In this document: piece after piece, positions 57,840 through 64,000 of the stretch
Layout of the letters: each line of letters begins with the position of its first letter
Numbering within the stretch: position 1 is the first letter of the stretch
Assembly (NCBI GenBank): GCA_016787225.1
Contig: JAEUUY010000029.1
Location: 1 to 64,000, forward strand
Source: Chitinophagales bacterium
GTDB taxonomy: Bacteria > Bacteroidota > Bacteroidia > Chitinophagales > JADJOU01
DNA: 64,000 nucleotides
Direction: 5' to 3'
Made by a program: the position numbers and the translations under genes
The notes under the pieces: generated by a model
What the model saw: the letters and a program-made list of their open reading frames with translations, nothing else
Databases searched by the model: none
What the model was told of the DNA's origin: nothing

Positions 57840-58343
57840 ATGATTAAGCTACGTCCAATTTTAGAATCGGACCTTGATAGAATCGTTCAACTTTGTCAGG
57901 ATCCTGAAATAAGTCAAATGACTCTCAATGTGCCTTATCCATATAACATGGAGCATGCTCGTTTTTTTTATGATCGTATTGTACAAGGAGGCAAATCACA
58001 TACCTTAGGTATTCATTTATCAGATAATTTTGATTTAATTGGTGTAATTGGTGCTAATTTCAACCCAACCAAGTCCTGGGCAGCAGAAATTGGATACTGG
58101 ATGGGAAAAGAATATAGAAATAAAGGTTATATGACGGAAGCCTTAAAGCAAATAATTCAAATTTGTTTTCAAGAATTAAAACTTGTGCGCGTATGCGCCT
58201 GTCACGATCCCATAAACCCAGCTTCGGGAAAAGTGATGCTCAATGCCGGAATGGAACTAGAAGGAATATTTAAATCCTACGTTATGAAAGACTCCGTTTA
58301 TAGAGATTCTATCTATTATTCCATTATAAATCCGAATATTTAG
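57840..58343 (+). CDS. GNAT N-acetyltransferase (RimJ/RimL-like)
   Basis: 167 residues. GNAT fold with IKLRPILESDLDRIVQLCQD, EIGYWMGKEYRNKGYMTEAL (acetyl-CoA loop) and NPASGKVMLNAGMELEGIFK. It transfers acetyl groups to ribosomal protein N termini or small amines; the substrate is unknown. It follows the transporter by 14 nt. Its TAG stop lies 2 nt before the dif-like sequence that starts the putative prophage, so the gene is intact and marks the chromosomal side of the junction. Confidence 0.92.
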   Translation: MIKLRPILESDLDRIVQLCQDPEISQMTLNVPYPYNMEHARFFYDRIVQGGKSHTLGIHLSDNFDLIGVIGANFNPTKSWAAEIGYWMGKEYRNKGYMTEALKQIIQICFQELKLVRVCACHDPINPASGKVMLNAGMELEGIFKSYVMKDSVYRDSIYYSIINPNI

Positions 58344-58345
58344 AA

Positions 58346-58373
58346 TTGTCTTATAATTTACAGTATGTTATTT
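58346..58373. other. dif-like XerCD recombination site, left prophage junction
   Basis: The 28 bases read TTGTCTTATAA, centre TTTACA, GTATGTTATTT. They align with the bacterial dif pattern GGTGCGCATAA, TGTATA, TTATGTTAAAT: the ATAA inner left arm and TATGTTA right arm match and the spacer is 6 nt. The site lies exactly between the last chromosomal gene and the first phage-like gene. Phages that use host XerCD integrate at dif and leave dif-like junctions on both sides. The right junction would be beyond the window. Confidence 0.6.
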
Positions 58374-58379
58374 TGTGAA

Positions 58380-58802
58380 TTAAAATTCACATTCACTAAC
58401 GGTTAATTTAAATTTGTATAATGAAGGATAATCATATGCAATCATGTAATTTAAATCTATTGCAATATAACCATTTTCAATTGAATTTGAAAAAAACAAT
58501 TTATTTGTGTCTGTTTTTACAATAGGTATGGCACTCACTGAATTTTCTCCTATTTGTTGAATTTTTGCTTTATTATTATTTACCCAAATAATGTAAGATG
58601 AAGTAGTATATTTTTGGGCTATAATAGATTCAACAAAGTGTCTATTTGAAGAAGCTAAAAAAGAAGAAGCCATATTTGATATAACTTTATTAGATTCTTT
58701 TTTTATTTCTTCATATTCGGAAGTAAGTATATATTTTTTGCAATTTTGAGCATTTAAATTAAATGCAGCTAATAAAAAAAAGCCTAAAATTTTTGCGTGC
58801 AT
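58380..58802 (-). CDS. Secreted 140-residue protein at the prophage edge
   Basis: Signal peptide MHAKILGFFLLAAFNLNAQ, cleaved after AQ. The mature part of ~121 residues is not recognised; its C-terminal half is strand-rich (GYIAIDLNYMIAYDYPSLYK) with one Cys near each end (NCKKYILT and VSECEF) that could form a disulfide. It is the gene nearest the dif-like site and has its own consensus promoter (58819-58848). It could be a lysogen-expressed accessory gene, for instance for surface exclusion, or a phage-borne secreted factor. It could also belong to the chromosome if the junction lies elsewhere. Confidence 0.6.
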   Translation of the reverse strand: MHAKILGFFLLAAFNLNAQNCKKYILTSEYEEIKKESNKVISNMASSFLASSNRHFVESIIAQKYTTSSYIIWVNNNKAKIQQIGENSVSAIPIVKTDTNKLFFSNSIENGYIAIDLNYMIAYDYPSLYKFKLTVSECEF

Positions 58803-58818
58803 GGTATTAAATTTTAGG

Positions 58819-58848
58819 CAAAGTTAATTAATTTAATTAACTTGTCAA
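58819..58848 (-). promoter_or_regulatory. Consensus promoter of the secreted protein gene
   Basis: On the minus strand TTG (58848-58846), 19 nt, then TAACTTTG (58826-58819): an exact match to the Bacteroidota promoter pattern, 16 nt before the ATG at 58802. Host-type sigma recognition would allow expression in the silent prophage state. Confidence 0.65.
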
Positions 58849-59168
58849 GTATTTTTTTTGCAAACCACTAAATAATTTTGGTTTGCTTGATATCCTACTA
58901 CAACAGAAGCAGTTTTTATAAAATCTTGATTATCGAATAAATCCCAATTCATAAAGAAAAAATCCTTATACCTTTCGTATTGCGGAAATATTTCCGTAGG
59001 GAAGCCAGGTTGATCCTTTATGTATTCGTTAACTAAATCTTTTGTTTGATCTACAGGAATAATTGAAGGAAGTGGGACCAATCCTTGAGGATTGATAAAA
59101 CTAGAGGTAATTTTTAAATTACCTTGAGAATCAGTTGCAAATACTCTAAATTCGAAATTACTGCTCAT
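58845..59168 (-). CDS. Phage-region hypothetical protein, 107 residues
   Basis: I do not recognise this protein. It is soluble and strand-rich (NFEFRVFATDSQGNLKITSS, KTASVVVGYQANQNYLVVCK), with Pro-rich PQGLVPLPSIIPVDQTK. The ATG at 59168 starts 1 nt after the upstream gene's stop and is preferred to an ATG four codons earlier that overlaps it. It may be a small structural protein. Confidence 0.6.
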   Translation of the reverse strand: MSSNFEFRVFATDSQGNLKITSSFINPQGLVPLPSIIPVDQTKDLVNEYIKDQPGFPTEIFPQYERYKDFFFMNWDLFDNQDFIKTASVVVGYQANQNYLVVCKKNT

Positions 59169-59169
59169 A

Positions 59170-59589
59170 TTAGTATCCAAAATATTTTTTTTGCAATGGT
59201 TTAAGCATATCTATTTCTCTGCTATCCTCAGGACGTGCAAGAGTTTTTCTTATATCTGTTTTGAGAACCCGATTTGTTTGGTCATAGTAGTACTCATTTA
59301 AAAGATTTAGTAATTTTTCGTTTGGTATTTCATTGAGGGCATTAACTATTATAATTTCGTCGCTATTGTGCCATGTATCGGTAATCTTTTGTGATTGAAT
59401 CATATCAAAAACACGCTTGACAAGCTTAATTTCGCTTGAAGTTACTTTATATGCGCTCGCGTCAATATCGTCGCTTAGATTTTCAGCTGGTTTTTTTGCT
59501 ATAGATAACAAAGAGAAAATTATATCCTTGAATATCAAGAATATAATTACTAAAAATATAAGTCCTTTGTATTTAGAAAGAAATTGCAT
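59170..59589 (-). CDS. Phage-region protein with N-terminal membrane anchor
   Basis: 139 residues. A single N-terminal membrane segment (YKGLIFLVIIFLIFKDIIFSL) is followed by a soluble, mainly helical domain with KLVKRVFDMIQSQKI and NEKLLNLLNEYYYDQTNRVL. No family recognised. It overlaps the muramidase gene by 17 nt. A virion membrane protein or lysis accessory is possible. Confidence 0.6.
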   Translation of the reverse strand: MQFLSKYKGLIFLVIIFLIFKDIIFSLLSIAKKPAENLSDDIDASAYKVTSSEIKLVKRVFDMIQSQKITDTWHNSDEIIIVNALNEIPNEKLLNLLNEYYYDQTNRVLKTDIRKTLARPEDSREIDMLKPLQKKYFGY

Positions 59590-60169
59590 TTTTTATAGTT
59601 TTATAATTTAATGCTGCTACTATTCCTAAAGGAATCAGCCAATTTGCAGAGATTATAGAATTGTCTTTAGTAGGCAATAAATGGTCAGCTTTTAAAAATT
59701 CTAATAGTGTAGATAGCTTTTTGGCTGGTTGTGGAGTTCCACCAAAAATGTGATACTCTTTACCATTATAATTGTAATATGAAGTATCATTTTGAAAAGG
59801 TAAAGAAGCCCATTCTCTAGAGCATTTTTTAATGGCTTCAATCCAATTTCCGTTTAATACGTCGTTTTCTGCACCTCGTAATTTTATAAGATATAATGCA
59901 GCAGAATCCTGAGAACTAGGTGAAAAATCTTTTAGTCCAAGTGCTTTAACGCACATTTCCCATGTGCCTTTAACAATTTGATAAGCACCTTGAGCGGTAA
60001 TATCTTTACCATTAAATGGTACGGCTGGAGCTCTTTTAAGAAAGTTCGTTATATGCGGTTCGGTATAGTTAAAACGAACAGCATAGGGTAAAACTCCTTG
60101 TTTTACCCTTAAGTCCGTTCCTTCGGCGAACATTATTAATCTCAAAAACTTAGACTGGTTTTTAGTCAC
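59573..60169 (-). CDS. GH104-type muramidase/lytic enzyme with C-terminal membrane anchor
   Basis: 198 residues. The lysozyme fold shows RLIMFAEGTDLR with the likely catalytic Glu near 16, then ITAQGAYQIVKGTWEMCVKA, LKDFSPSSQDSAALYLIKLR and REWASLP, in the order seen in the GH104 family (lambda R/SAR-type transglycosylases). Unlike lambda R it ends with a hydrophobic segment SANWLIPLGIVAALNY plus basic residues, a likely membrane anchor. Such an enzyme could be virion-bound and open peptidoglycan on entry, as in membrane-containing phages, and also lyse the host. The start is GTG. Catalytic mechanism (hydrolase or transglycosylase) is not resolved. Confidence 0.82.
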   Translation of the reverse strand: MTKNQSKFLRLIMFAEGTDLRVKQGVLPYAVRFNYTEPHITNFLKRAPAVPFNGKDITAQGAYQIVKGTWEMCVKALGLKDFSPSSQDSAALYLIKLRGAENDVLNGNWIEAIKKCSREWASLPFQNDTSYYNYNGKEYHIFGGTPQPAKKLSTLLEFLKADHLLPTKDNSIISANWLIPLGIVAALNYKTIKNAISF

Positions 60170-60172
60170 AAC

Positions 60173-60331
60173 TTACTTTTTTTCTTTACGCAAAAAGTTT
60201 AAGAATTTTGGAAGTTTCTCGGTGTCCAACATGGTGTCTATGAAACCATTAGAACGAGCTTTTAAGGTAATAAAAACTCCTAAAACGCATAGAATTAGGA
60301 TTATCCATGAAAATAATTTAGATTTGAACAT
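60173..60331 (-). CDS. Small phage membrane protein, 52 residues
   Basis: Reads MFKSKLFSWIILILCVLGVF then ITLKARSNGFIDTMLDTEKL and ends LRKEKK. One N-terminal membrane segment with basic residues on both sides. It fills the gap between the holin-like gene and the muramidase, ending 3 nt before the latter. It may be a lysis protein (spanin-like or second holin) or a virion membrane protein. Confidence 0.6.
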   Translation of the reverse strand: MFKSKLFSWIILILCVLGVFITLKARSNGFIDTMLDTEKLPKFLNFLRKEKK

Positions 60332-60347
60332 ATGATTTAATTTTTAG

Positions 60348-60551
60348 TTAATGATTTTTTGTGATTTCTTTATACTTTATAATTCTGTCGAATAGTAATA
60401 CTACAGTTGATACAACAAAATAGCCGACCATGGCATAAAATTTAATATCTTCTTGTGCAGTAGAATTAGCTATTAATTGCGTTGTGGCAACACCACCAAC
60501 AGTATAACCACCTGTAAATAGAGTATCTCGCATTGAATCAAGATTAAACAT
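60348..60551 (-). CDS. Holin-like phage membrane protein, 67 residues
   Basis: 67 residues with a first hydrophobic stretch GGYTVGGVATTQLI and a stronger one IKFYAMVGYFVVSTVVLLFD, ending in basic RIIKYKEITKNH. Size, two-segment topology, charged tail and the position just upstream of the muramidase suit a class II holin. A structural membrane protein is the alternative. It overlaps the preceding small gene by 8 nt. Confidence 0.6.
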   Translation of the reverse strand: MFNLDSMRDTLFTGGYTVGGVATTQLIANSTAQEDIKFYAMVGYFVVSTVVLLFDRIIKYKEITKNH

Positions 60552-60690
60552 TTTCTTGGTTTATGGGTTGATCAAATGGAGTTTCTATTGGTGTTTCCAT
60601 TTCTTGCAATTTCTGCAACAAATAGGTGAGAGCAGCTATAGTTATAGTGCGAACTAATTGATTTTTAAAATATTTTTCTAATCCGAACAT
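60544..60690 (-). CDS. Small phage protein, 48 residues
   Basis: Reads MFGLEKYFKNQLVRTITIAA, LTYLLQKLQE, then an acidic tail METPIETPFDQPINQENV. It has one short amphipathic or membrane-interacting helix. It is tightly fitted between the basic protein gene (11-nt gap) and the holin-like gene (8-nt overlap), which is the main support. Function unknown. Confidence 0.5.
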   Translation of the reverse strand: MFGLEKYFKNQLVRTITIAALTYLLQKLQEMETPIETPFDQPINQENV

Positions 60691-60701
60691 AATAAATTAT
60701 T

Positions 60702-60938
60702 TTAGTAACGTCTACGACGTGATGATTTACGCATTTCTTTTCCAATAGTTCTGCCTAAAGTTTTTGCCATGTTATATGCAGTCTTTTTGGCTGCTCTTCT
60801 TTTTGCTACAGCTTTATTATGATTAGATAAGTCTTTTTTTTCGGAATCCGAAAGTTTATCATAGACAGCCTTAGGCAATTTGACTATTCCTTTTCCAAAG
60901 TTAATTTTTTTAGAATCTCCTAGTAATTGTTCTAACAT
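60702..60938 (-). CDS. Arg/Lys-rich phage protein, possible genome-condensing core protein
   Basis: 78 residues, strongly basic. The N-terminal half has GKGIVKLPKAVYDKLSDSEK. The C-terminal half is a nucleic-acid-binding-like stretch ending in KTLGRTIGKEMRKSSRRRRY. Small basic proteins like this package or neutralise genomes in small tailless phages. No family is recognised. It lies 2 nt before the next upstream gene's stop. Confidence 0.6.
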   Translation of the reverse strand: MLEQLLGDSKKINFGKGIVKLPKAVYDKLSDSEKKDLSNHNKAVAKRRAAKKTAYNMAKTLGRTIGKEMRKSSRRRRY

Positions 60939-60940
60939 GA

Positions 60941-61144
60941 TTATGAATTTAATTTGTTAATGAATTTTTTATATAAGTAATAAGCTAGCAAGTTACCAAT
61001 AATTAATATTATTACGAGCTTCCAATTTTTCTTTAACAAGTCAGTGAATAAAGAAAAAATTCTAGATAAAAAGCTAGGTTTTTTTAATTCCGTAGCTTGT
61101 AGGTCTAAATATTCTATTTCATTGGTTATTACAGCTGCACTCAC
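60941..61144 (-). CDS. Small phage membrane protein, 67 residues
   Basis: 67 residues from a GTG whose last bases overlap the upstream TGA stop (GTGA). Polar N terminus SAAVITNEIEYLDLQATELK, an amphipathic FLSRIFSLFTDLLKKNW and a C-terminal membrane segment KLVIILIIGNLLAYYLYKKF. A longer frame starting at 61201 would overlap the upstream gene by 60 nt and is less likely. Probably a virion membrane protein. Confidence 0.6.
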   Translation of the reverse strand: MSAAVITNEIEYLDLQATELKKPSFLSRIFSLFTDLLKKNWKLVIILIIGNLLAYYLYKKFINKLNS

Positions 61145-61578
61145 TTTATTATGAATTTTTTTAATGCAAAAACTAAACCAAGAATAAAGACAGGAAGCCA
61201 ATATTTTTGGTTTTGGTTAACTGCTTCTGTTTTTACTGCGCTAAGAGCACCACGAATTGCAGAATCTAATACGGTGTTTCCAGAAGTACCACCGCCAGCA
61301 ACAATCTTTACAATATCTAATCTATCTCGTAAGAATTTAGCAACTAAATCCTCAGTAGTTTTTTCAAGTTGGTCTAAAACAGGGTTTTCTCCCATTTTTA
61401 GATTAACAGATTCAACAGGCTTTGCCTTGATTAAATCATTTTGGACCATGTCAGATTTTTTTATTTCAACAGGTCCTGTAGGAACTTGTTTCAAAATGTC
61501 GATTTGTCGCTGAGACATTCCGCCCATTGGATCACCAAATGAAACAATATCTTTAAATAAAGAATTTAAAACGGCCAT
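61141..61578 (-). CDS. Phage membrane-anchored protein, 145 residues
   Basis: 145 residues. The N terminus MAVLNSLFKDIVSFGDPMGG is followed by a polar middle (NPVLDQLEKTTEDLVAKFLR), a Gly-rich turn VAGGGTSGNTVLDSAIRGAL and a C-terminal membrane segment KYWLPVFILGLVFALKKFII. Tail-anchored plan, as in the crystallin-like protein upstream, whose stop overlaps this start by 1 nt. A penton-base or vertex role is conceivable; no family recognised. Confidence 0.6.
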   Translation of the reverse strand: MAVLNSLFKDIVSFGDPMGGMSQRQIDILKQVPTGPVEIKKSDMVQNDLIKAKPVESVNLKMGENPVLDQLEKTTEDLVAKFLRDRLDIVKIVAGGGTSGNTVLDSAIRGALSAVKTEAVNQNQKYWLPVFILGLVFALKKFIIK

Positions 61579-62288
61579 TATTTTTTAATTATGAAGAATG
61601 AAATGATTCCAACAATGACCCACATAAACATGTTGTTTGATTCTGTGGTTTGTTTGGTATTAGTCGTATTCGTTCCTGTATAACCAGAACTTGGTACGCC
61701 TGTTTGGTTACCTGTATAACCTACGGTAGTAGTTATAGGTTTGTTATTGACACTTATATCAATATCTTCTTTTGCAGGGTCGGTTGTTGGTTTAAAAGAG
61801 ATATTTGAAGGATTTTTATAAGCTGGTGTTAAAGATACCTTAACGCTGCTTATTCTGTCGTTCCAATAGGGCCAATCTTGATACAAGTTTACAAAATTTA
61901 GTGTGCCTTTCCTAGTTCCATAACTGCCTTGCATTGTGCCTCCTGTAATAGAATCTTTTAAGCCTCCGAAATTGGGGTGTTCAAAAAATTCTACTTTAAC
62001 GCCTGTATCAACTTCTATTGAGCTAATGGTGTCATGCCAATTTGTACCATGGATAAAAAAATCGCTTAGATTAGTTGGCTCGGTGAACACTATAGCACCT
62101 CCATTTTTTTCGGGGTGATTGTAAAGAATGGCTATAGGATATTTACCTTTGCCAATTATTACATTGTTTCTATCCTGTAGTACATGATCTCTCCTTGCTA
62201 TGTCAGCAGCAGAATCACCACCGAAAAGGTCACCTATTAAACCTACTCCGACTTTAGCAAGACCTAGACCTACTCCTATAATACTCAT
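61578..62288 (-). CDS. Beta-gamma-crystallin-domain phage protein with C-terminal anchor
   Basis: 236 residues. Residues about 50-150 hold a pair of beta-gamma-crystallin (Greek key) motifs: KYPIAILYNHPEKNGGAIVF with HDTISSIEVDTG, then VKVEFFEHPNFGGLKDSITG with NDRISSVKVSL. The (D/N)xxSS stretches are the usual calcium-binding positions. A Thr/Asn/Gly-rich linker (YTGNQTGVPSSGYTGTNTTN) leads to the membrane segment MFMWVIVGIISFFIIKK. This is the design of a stalked surface protein: head, flexible stalk, membrane anchor. I infer a vertex spike or host-binding protein. It follows the capsid candidate by 21 nt. Confidence 0.75.
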   Translation of the reverse strand: MSIIGVGLGLAKVGVGLIGDLFGGDSAADIARRDHVLQDRNNVIIGKGKYPIAILYNHPEKNGGAIVFTEPTNLSDFFIHGTNWHDTISSIEVDTGVKVEFFEHPNFGGLKDSITGGTMQGSYGTRKGTLNFVNLYQDWPYWNDRISSVKVSLTPAYKNPSNISFKPTTDPAKEDIDISVNNKPITTTVGYTGNQTGVPSSGYTGTNTTNTKQTTESNNMFMWVIVGIISFFIIKK

Positions 62289-62309: not shown

Positions 62310-63125
62310 TTAAACAAATTGTTCTTCAATAATTGAGTAGTAGAATTGAGTGTCCTCGGCATGCTTCAATTTGATCATTGTTAGCATGGAACTTCTAGAC
62401 CAGCCTGTCAAATCAATGGCAATAGAGCCTGAATAATTTGAACATAAGTGGTTTTTTGCAACAACTCCTATAGATTGAGTAGAATTATTTAGAAAATCTA
62501 GCTCTCTAGCTATTAAGGTGTTAGTGACTCCGTTTGAAAAATTCAGGTCAATTTCTCTTAAAGAGTCCAAAATAACATACTTCTGTCCAATATATTTAAT
62601 TGGGGTAAATTGTCCGGCGTGAGCGGTATCTCTATAAAGACAATTCAAAGACAATGAGCGGTCGGCAGTTGTAGAAATTGCGTATAGTTGGCATTTAACA
62701 TCTGCGTTGTTTGAAGTTATTGAAACATTCAACCAACCTTTATTGGAAAATGGAACTTGTCCTGTAGAAATGAGATAAGGTACAGTGATAATAACCTTAT
62801 CATTTTCTGTAGCTTTGAGTAAAATAGGAAGATTTGCAGTTTGTGCAGCTAGGGCAATTTCATGCAAAGTAAGATTTGAAATAAGATTTTTTGACTTAAT
62901 TAGTGGTGTATCCAAAGAAACCTCTACTTTTTTGAGAACGTTCTCTATAATAGGGGAAAATTCAGAATCTTCTTTGCGAAGTAAATTATTTACTTCGTCT
63001 AAGTCATTGCCTTGTCCATAGCTTAAATTAGATTCTACCTCAAAAAAAAGTAAATTGCAAGGCTCTGTAATTTTTTCGTTTCTTAATTGTAACACGTTGG
63101 TTACTTGGTGCGCTATAATTGACAT
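62310..63125 (-). CDS. Candidate major capsid protein, 271 residues
   Basis: 271 residues, no membrane segment, predicted to be almost all beta-strand after a helical N-terminal third (KVIITVPYLISTGQVPFSNK, VKCQLYAISTTADRSLSLNC, KYVILDSLREIDLNFSNGVT). It is the first gene after the phage promoter and the largest soluble structural candidate. The length is close to double-jelly-roll capsid proteins of small membrane-containing phages. I recognise no sequence family; the capsid call rests on position, size and strand content. A structure prediction would decide. Confidence 0.5.
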   Translation of the reverse strand: MSIIAHQVTNVLQLRNEKITEPCNLLFFEVESNLSYGQGNDLDEVNNLLRKEDSEFSPIIENVLKKVEVSLDTPLIKSKNLISNLTLHEIALAAQTANLPILLKATENDKVIITVPYLISTGQVPFSNKGWLNVSITSNNADVKCQLYAISTTADRSLSLNCLYRDTAHAGQFTPIKYIGQKYVILDSLREIDLNFSNGVTNTLIARELDFLNNSTQSIGVVAKNHLCSNYSGSIAIDLTGWSRSSMLTMIKLKHAEDTQFYYSIIEEQFV

Positions 63126-63164: not shown

Positions 63165-64000
63165 CTAGGAATGAGTGAAATATCTTATTCGCTTTTTTTC
63201 GCTCATTAGCTTAGGGATAAGGCTTGTACCGTTTTGCTCGTTTAATTTATGCATTAATTCCATTAAAAAGTCGTGTATTTCTATGATTTTCTGCCTTTTA
63301 GTCTTTCTAATTTCATTGATTTTTAAGGTTATGTCTCTTTCGTCATGTTTTAAAGGCTTAATTTTTTTTGATTTGAAATAAAAAGAGGGTACAATTTCAA
63401 CAAATTTTCGCTCAAGATAGTACCAATTATATGGATGCCATTGAACAACTGCATTTGCAAAGTATTGATAGTTGTAATTATCCAAAATTTCATTGTCCAG
63501 ATATTGGTAAATATAGTAGGTGTAAATTTGTTTTTCAAATCTATAGTTTGCTTCCTTGGTCCATTTATGTTTTTCGATTTTAAAGTTTTGGTTAAATATA
63601 AATTCTATAGGTTTTTCATTGTCAGTTCGAGGTAAATAAAGGAATTTCAAATCTTCATTTATTATTTGAAAATATAGAAGTTTGCAATAGTTTAGAAAGT
63701 CTGGTGAAAGTAAATGGTTTGAAATTTCTATAATTTCACCTGTATCTTTTGAGTAGGTATTTCTTTCCGAGTTAAAAGGTTTTCTATGGTAAATAGTGTT
63801 GCCTTGCAAATCTGTTTCAGTGAATTGGACGTATTCAGTAGAATTATTTAGAAAATATTGCTTGAGTTTGTCTTTGGTTAGACGTATTTCAAAGCGATAG
63901 ACTTTTTCAAACAATATTTTATTTATTTCAAAATATTCCAGGATATAGTCCTTGTTTTTTTTGATTTTCAGTTCCTGCATTTTTTCGTAGAAAGAAAACC
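63165..64000 (-). CDS. Phage protein cut by the window edge, possible rolling-circle replication initiator
   Basis: At least 277 residues. The frame stays open to the edge (FSFYEK precedes the first ATG at 63980), so that ATG may be internal. FYEKMQEL followed by EKVYRFEIRLTKDKLKQYFL resembles the C-terminal region of gene II/X-type HUH replication initiators, in which a YxK motif precedes an RxEVR-like strand. The HUH motif itself would lie outside the window. The rest is basic and aromatic (WHPYNWYYLERKFVEIVPSF). The call is moderate; it could be an unrelated early phage protein. Confidence 0.45.
   Translation of the reverse strand, partial: FSFYEKMQELKIKKNKDYILEYFEINKILFEKVYRFEIRLTKDKLKQYFLNNSTEYVQFTETDLQGNTIYHRKPFNSERNTYSKDTGEIIEISNHLLSPDFLNYCKLLYFQIINEDLKFLYLPRTDNEKPIEFIFNQNFKIEKHKWTKEANYRFEKQIYTYYIYQYLDNEILDNYNYQYFANAVVQWHPYNWYYLERKFVEIVPSFYFKSKKIKPLKHDERDITLKINEIRKTKRQKIIEIHDFLMELMHKLNEQNGTSLIPKLMSEKKRIRYFTHS

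Follow-up and report, generated by a model that had tools for sequence, protein, structure and literature searches.

The window analysed here, 64,000 nt in length, corresponds to C29:1-64000, part of a 130.8-kb contig in a Chitinophagales assembly (G000) of 2.96 Mb in 34 contigs that is 99.3% complete. Towards its right end lies a chromosomal gene for a GNAT acetyltransferase (57840..58343, plus strand; Pfam Acetyltransf_3, E 1.1e-29). The 28-mer TTGTCTTATAATTTACAGTATGTTATTT (58346-58373, plus strand) starts 2 nt past the stop codon of this gene and ends 6 nt ahead of the stop codon of the minus-strand ORF o1 (58380-58802). The initial annotation had placed the 28-mer at this position and at these distances from the two stop codons, and had described it as a dif-like site at a chromosome-phage junction, with arms resembling those of XerC and XerD around a 6-nt centre. 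The XerC arm, TTGTCTTATAA, and the centre, TTTACA, are intact, but the XerD arm, GTATGTTATTT, lies on the phage side and is degraded, making the 28-mer an attL and not a dif.

The annotation had proposed looking for a matching repeat at the right end, and one was found beyond the window, at C29:66690-66717 (= L003:11690-11717; plus strand), in direct orientation and 8,344 bp away, where TTGTCTTATAA and TTTACA are followed by the arm TTATGTTAAGT. Aligned to the reported 28-mer, this second copy gives a 25-bp match with one mismatch; the two sites are identical at 17/17 positions over the XerC arm and centre, and 3/11 positions differ in the XerD arm. A whole-genome search with the dif-form 28-mer, allowing at most 3 mismatches, returned exactly 2 matches, both on the forward strand of C29 (66690-66717 with 0 mismatches and 58346-58373 with 3), and the 28-mer read backwards as a control gave 0 matches in the whole genome. 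Within the window the 28-mer matches once, and 100 shuffles gave none. With a weight matrix derived from the dif sites of other members of the order, the right site scored 33.7, the left site 21.1, and the next best site on C29 13.8. A chance repeat was rejected, since the genome holds only two matches and the matrix scores are far above that of the next site; the view that the functional dif is the reported 28-mer was also rejected, because its XerD arm is degraded and it is the right copy that has the conserved form. Judged from its arms, 58346-58373 is the hybrid left junction (attL) of an element of 8,344 bp, measured from the start of the left site to the start of the right site, and the right copy (attR) is the chromosomal dif. 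The GC content of the element is 0.309, compared to 0.353 and 0.355 in the flanks.

Several lines of evidence assign the right copy to the chromosome. The dif core pattern was found in 327/396 genomes of the order, our own genome counted, and a canonical site with the centre TTTACA is present in 4/5 of the nearest relatives (G001, G002, G003, and G005; G004, which is 62% complete, gave no match). The XerD arm of the right copy differs at one position from the E. coli arm. Comparison with relatives lacking the element, which the annotation had advised, revealed an empty dif between equivalent neighbour genes: among the matches listed, the order GNAT-dif-glycosyltransferase was seen in Chitinophagales bacterium SFB_Fresh_Co_18 (L144) and Saprospirales bacterium CE-Oct18-152 (L073), and GNAT-dif-...-TspO-glycosyltransferase in Sphingobacteriales bacterium CoA8_V48 (L122). 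An EamA gene lies upstream of the GNAT gene in the dif neighbourhood of all three, and TspO intervenes in L122 as it does in the genome of the window, where a Cys-loop-like channel gene, TspO, and a glycosyltransferase follow from C29:66718 on. Since the same neighbour genes surround dif in relatives, the acetyltransferase side and the side from C29:66718 onward are the two halves of an old empty site. For GC-skew, calculated at contig level with the element removed and 122 kb of flanks, the best single breakpoint was in bin 59, one 1-kb bin away from the site in bin 58 (t 4.51 and 4.40, respectively). About 45 kb farther right, bin 103 gave a second breakpoint of nearly the same quality (t 4.23). 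The skew value at the site was reached in 12/5000 block permutations. All 5 copies on the contig flanks of the octamer GGGNAGGG, the E. coli FtsK signal, are directed towards the site, although five is a small number. Conserved in the order, located at the skew switch, and lying between genes that in relatives enclose an empty dif, the right-hand copy is by these sequence criteria the chromosomal dif. The annotation's expectation of a dif at this junction, with no clear dif elsewhere, was thus borne out, the genome's clear dif being the right repeat, located where the GC skew of the contig switches. Two genes to the right of dif are recorded here as separate observations: a Cys-loop-receptor-like gene directly beside it (L003:11814-12806, C29:66814-67806; Neur_chan_LBD, E 3.1e-6) and, 3 kb to the right, a gene that from the ORF list alone looks like a cytosine methyltransferase gene and has restriction-modification-looking neighbours (L003:14853-19014).

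All 19 ORFs of the element (48-482 aa) lie on the minus strand, and none encodes a recombinase. The ORF next to attL, o1 (140 aa), has no significant family; o2 (111 aa; 58845..59180) has no significant PHROG, and o3 (139 aa; 59170..59589) has one predicted membrane segment. The product of o4 (198 aa; 59573..60169) is endolysin-like (phrog_90 endolysin, E 1.1e-23) and has a homologue in a dif-flanked element of genome G233 (E 8.4e-19). A cluster of small ORFs, o5-o10 (60173..61578), follows, in which o5, o6, o9, and o10 have one predicted membrane segment each and o8 is Lys/Arg-rich. The 236-aa o11 (61578..62288) combines a beta/gamma-crystallin-like stretch (Inhibitor_I36, E 9.2e-5; Crystall_3, E 3.2e-4) with a predicted membrane segment. 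Next come o12 (271 aa; 62310..63125), a candidate major capsid protein by its position after the replication gene, as in PhiCjT23 and phi18:4, and o13 (482 aa; 63165..64000 and on to C29:64613), a rolling-circle initiator (Rep) of the PhiCjT23 type. Beyond the window, o15 (C29:65151-65693) is DNA-methyltransferase-like.

The assignment of o13 relies on its matches to PF02486 (E 1.5e-5, just under the cut-off) and to PhiCjT23 gp03 (phmmer E 2.7e-6), and on comparison with a profile of the four-member Rep family (hhalign probability 98.1, E 9.9e-14). The Rep of PhiCjT23 also falls just under the PF02486 cut-off and matches the same part of the profile. PhiCjT23 is described as a temperate, membrane-containing ssDNA phage (PMC9719478). 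Phages of its kind are characterized by an icosahedral virion with an inner membrane and by a double jelly-roll capsid protein. For o12, profile comparison with the capsid sets of FLiP, PhiCjT23, and G296 gave no match, and sequence searches likewise returned no capsid. The capsids of PhiCjT23 and FLiP, reported to be linked by structure (PMC9719478), reached a probability of 0.1 in the same test; because the test also misses this pair, the failure of o12 is not counted against a capsid role. An AlphaFold model of o12 from the single sequence had a mean pLDDT of 31.4 and no usable fold, and phrog_37082, a family of unknown function, was a weak match (E 2.7e-4). Among 396 genomes of the order, o12 matched itself and, weakly, a stretch inside a 1,693-residue frame of G390 (E 8.8e-4), which we take as chance.

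A tblastn search with Rep and o12 gave no match in 50,697 phage records, and no relative of o12, o13, o15, or the Rep alignment A1 was confirmed in IMG/VR. Rep alone, searched in 395 genomes of the phylum, gave itself and 13 weak matches (1e-4 to 5e-3), mostly in long frames. Profile comparison of o10 and o11 with the FLiP gp9 family gave no match, and neither did o12 and o13 against the FLiP proteins; the FLiP-type capsid and Phage_CRI Rep that characterize the Finnlakeviridae are thus not seen in these two ORFs. From the Rep family, the size, and the gene layout, with o12 as a capsid candidate by position, the element appears to be a tailless membrane phage, and it would presumably make membrane-containing virions.

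As the annotation had stated, no integrase is apparent: neither the element nor the rest of C29 contains an ORF similar to any of the three tyrosine recombinases of the genome (phmmer E ≤ 0.01). These three, identified by a genome-wide PF00589 search, are all on other contigs. One is XerD, above the curated cut-off (335.2 compared to 329.6 bits), another is a XerC-like protein for which XerC is the best model, under the cut-off (285.6 compared to 335.15 bits), and the third is one longer, non-Xer integrase. The genome also encodes FtsK (FtsK_SpoIIIE, 189.8 bits). Three types of Xer-exploiting element have been distinguished (PMC5357621): CTXphi, with two attP sites folded from ssDNA and a centre that matches dif on the XerC side only; VGJphi, with one attP whose centre is different near the XerD side; and TLCphi, in which the XerC side and the centre match, the XerD site is divergent, and XerD acts first and then XerC, with no FtsK. 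Considering the junctions, we regard it as very probable that the element is an integrase-less temperate prophage that borrows XerCD and has inserted into the chromosomal dif by means of a TLCphi-type att site. Its circular double-stranded form would carry one attP, made of a good XerC arm, the 6-bp centre of dif, and a degraded XerD arm, and host XerC and XerD would recombine attP with dif across the shared 17 bp. The left product, attL, would then join the chromosomal XerC arm to the phage XerD arm, and the right product would be an intact dif composed of the phage XerC arm and the chromosomal XerD arm; with an intact dif retained at the right, the host would keep chromosome dimer resolution and the lysogen would survive. 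In a TLCphi-type order, XerD would act first, without FtsK, and XerC would complete the exchange. Catalysis by XerCD, this order of strand exchange, and dsDNA as the substrate are presumed from sequence. The weak XerD arm in attL would lower FtsK-driven excision at cell division, and we infer that the element is still active. Points against this reading are the XerC-like protein under its curated cut-off, the second GC-skew breakpoint, the lack of any match between o12 and known capsids, and the only moderate degradation of the XerD arm, at 3/11 positions. The XerD site of TLCphi is described as highly divergent (PMC5357621). TLCphi of Vibrio cholerae, a gammaproteobacterial phage, resembles the element in its single att site, in the XerC side and centre that match dif, in the diverging XerD site, and in the use of host XerCD (PMC5357621).

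The same att layout was found in at least five other integrated elements, in G179, G233, G301, G364, and G296, and the number of dif-flanked elements in the order is at least that of those named. Paired same-orientation dif cores on one contig were seen in G179 (9.6 kb), G364 (15.5 kb), G233 (34.3 kb), and G301 (14.9 kb); among 17 queried genomes with at least two same-strand cores, the pair was on one contig in 3. The element of G296 was found through its Rep, 1.2 kb from dif, and its left att was then located 8,290 bp upstream; it has the same size as our element, and its products include a PhiCjT23-family Rep, an endolysin, and a homologue of a virion structural protein. Within each of the six elements (our own, G179, G233, G296, G301, and G364) the two ends share one centre sequence, and the degraded XerD arm is always in the upstream copy, the conserved one in the downstream copy. 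This uniformity is partly a selection effect, since the sequences used to locate every left end came from the XerC side and the centre, and such patterns miss the reverse layout with a degraded XerC arm. The first XerD position is G in place of T in 3/6 elements (our own, G233, and G296). The element of G179 is clearly FLiP-like, with homologues of the FLiP capsid (E 1.2e-27), Rep (E 7e-59), and gp9 (E 1.1e-13). In G387 a related 16.4-kb element occupies its own contig (L198 = G387:C30, 16,496 bp), with a single attP, TTTGCCTATAA-TTTATA-TTATGCAAAAC, and a 77-bp terminal repeat that indicates a free circle, and the chromosomal dif of this genome, TTTGCCTATAA-TTTATA-TTATGTTAAAT, is empty on contig C42 (L199). 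Among 328 genomes searched, a PhiCjT23-type Rep was present in ten others, within 2 kb of dif in 2/10 (G222 and G296).

The alternatives concern both the nature of the element and its route of entry. That it is a small rolling-circle plasmid or a satellite residing at dif, and not a phage, is unlikely. Rep_trans replication proteins occur in plasmids too, and the capsid protein is a candidate that matches no known capsid; against this, the element has the endolysin-like o4 and a run of small membrane-segment proteins with a Lys/Arg-rich protein near Rep, and the dif-flanked relative in G296, of the same size, joins a Rep of the family to an endolysin and a virion-structural-protein homologue. 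At 8.3 kb it also falls inside the range of 6,021-8,407 bp of the published PhiCjT23-like prophages (PMC9719478). Still less probable is entry of the CTXphi type. There, two dif-like sites in inverted orientation on the single-stranded phage genome pair to form a hairpin, XerC recombines this hairpin with dif, and integration is irreversible. An ssDNA phage is indeed indicated by the Rep family and the kinship with PhiCjT23, and an additional dif-like site close to one end is described for some Bacteroidetes proviruses of the Microviridae (PMC3091885), but no second dif-like site is present in our element, where the best internal one has 4/17 mismatches and the inverted ones 5/17. In addition, the centres of attL and attR are identical, whereas that of CTXphi matches dif on the XerC side only (PMC5357621), and the related element in G387 is a circle with one attP. 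It is highly improbable that the element arrived in some other way, through homologous recombination or an integrase that it has since lost, with the terminal dif halves incidental: one non-Xer tyrosine integrase does exist on another contig, but both ends lie exactly on the dif XerC arm and centre, five other genomes show this layout around different cargo, and G387 holds an attP circle and an empty dif together.

Integrase-less phages that settle at dif are already known as a kind, from Microviridae proviruses, gokushoviruses, which reportedly integrate at dif, and PhiCjT23-like prophages. The annotation had considered the borrowing of XerCD by a tailless membrane phage of Bacteroidota notable; the XerCD reading is supported, but its novelty is not, as PhiCjT23-like prophages in Flavobacterium (PMC9719478) and, earlier, Microviridae proviruses (PMC3091885) have been published. 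For Flavobacterium, 57 putative PhiCjT23-related prophages are described, with dif at both ends and a Rep gene followed by the capsid gene (PMC9719478). Like our element they lack an integrase, are of similar size (6.0-8.4 kb), and have a Rep_trans-type Rep homologous to o13 (PMC9719478); the differences are the host, here Chitinophagales and not Flavobacterium, the unrelated endolysin, the presence of the methyltransferase-like o15, and a detectable relationship in Rep alone. The best dif-like site of PhiCjT23 by the Chitinophagales matrix was no better than shuffles, and its dif motif was for this reason taken from PMC9719478. The Microviridae proviruses of Bacteroidetes (BMVs) are likewise small, integrase-less ssDNA prophages with dif-like ends (PMC3091885). 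They differ in that a 13-bp repeat is reported for BMV1 (PMC3091885) and in their microvirus capsid family, which is absent here from the Pfam matches of 13/19 ORFs (one searched in part) and from the PHROG matches of 16/19. FLiP and the Finnlakeviridae are also small ssDNA phages of Bacteroidota, with a FLiP-like element at dif in G179; our element differs in its Rep (PF02486, compared to PF05144 in FLiP) and in a capsid candidate that is not FLiP-like. By the matrix, FLiP has no dif-like site above shuffles, and it is reported as non-integrating (PMC13269007). The passages considered from that paper report FLiP-like putative prophages in Sphingobacteriia without mention of dif, and its text contains no word starting with Xer (PMC13269007). 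As far as the open-access literature was searched, three points are new: the host order, the recurrence in Bacteroidota of a TLCphi-type layout, and the FLiP-like prophage at dif.

These comparisons suggest a more general picture, to which we give even odds: dif in Bacteroidota would be a common landing pad for several unrelated integrase-less, probably tailless phage lineages (with a PhiCjT23-type Rep, FLiP-type, of 15-16 kb, and of 34 kb), all with a TLCphi-like attP in which the XerC arm and centre track the host dif and the XerD arm is degraded. Such a design would make entry FtsK-independent, spare one intact dif, and stabilize the lysogen beside a site that is recombined at cell division. 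Small ssDNA and membrane-containing prophages lack integrase, terminase, and tail genes and are for this reason easily overlooked. The dif-pair signature, a set of two same-orientation cores with the upstream XerD arm degraded, finds them without protein similarity; it revealed the FLiP-like prophage, a circular form beside an empty dif, and elements of up to 34 kb, and it makes the question of FtsK-independent XerCD integration, as for TLCphi, testable in Bacteroidota.

Further observations were made at individual sites. The FLiP-like prophage of G179 lies at L190:4934-14580 (G179:C1:3906934-3916580), flanked by two dif copies. The elements of G364 (L191), G301 (L197), and G233 (L192+L193) are unassigned to a phage type by capsid; no capsid family was found in the six proteins of the G364 and G233 elements that were scanned, and a 644-aa protein of G364 is homologous to a transglutaminase-like protein of G233. 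In G381 (L203), the gene just left of dif resembles the last one of the G364 element, so that this genome is likely to hold another dif element; the stretch examined to the left of dif did not contain a recognizable attL for it. A same-genus genome, G003, has its real dif at another position but also contains a lone attP-like core with GTATG (L200; G003:C12:86372, minus strand), perhaps a chance match or a remnant. In G222, an 8,471-bp contig (L216; G222:C11) has a dif flanked on either side by copies of one Rep-bearing element in inverted orientation, an arrangement that may reflect a double insertion, a dimer, or an assembly effect.
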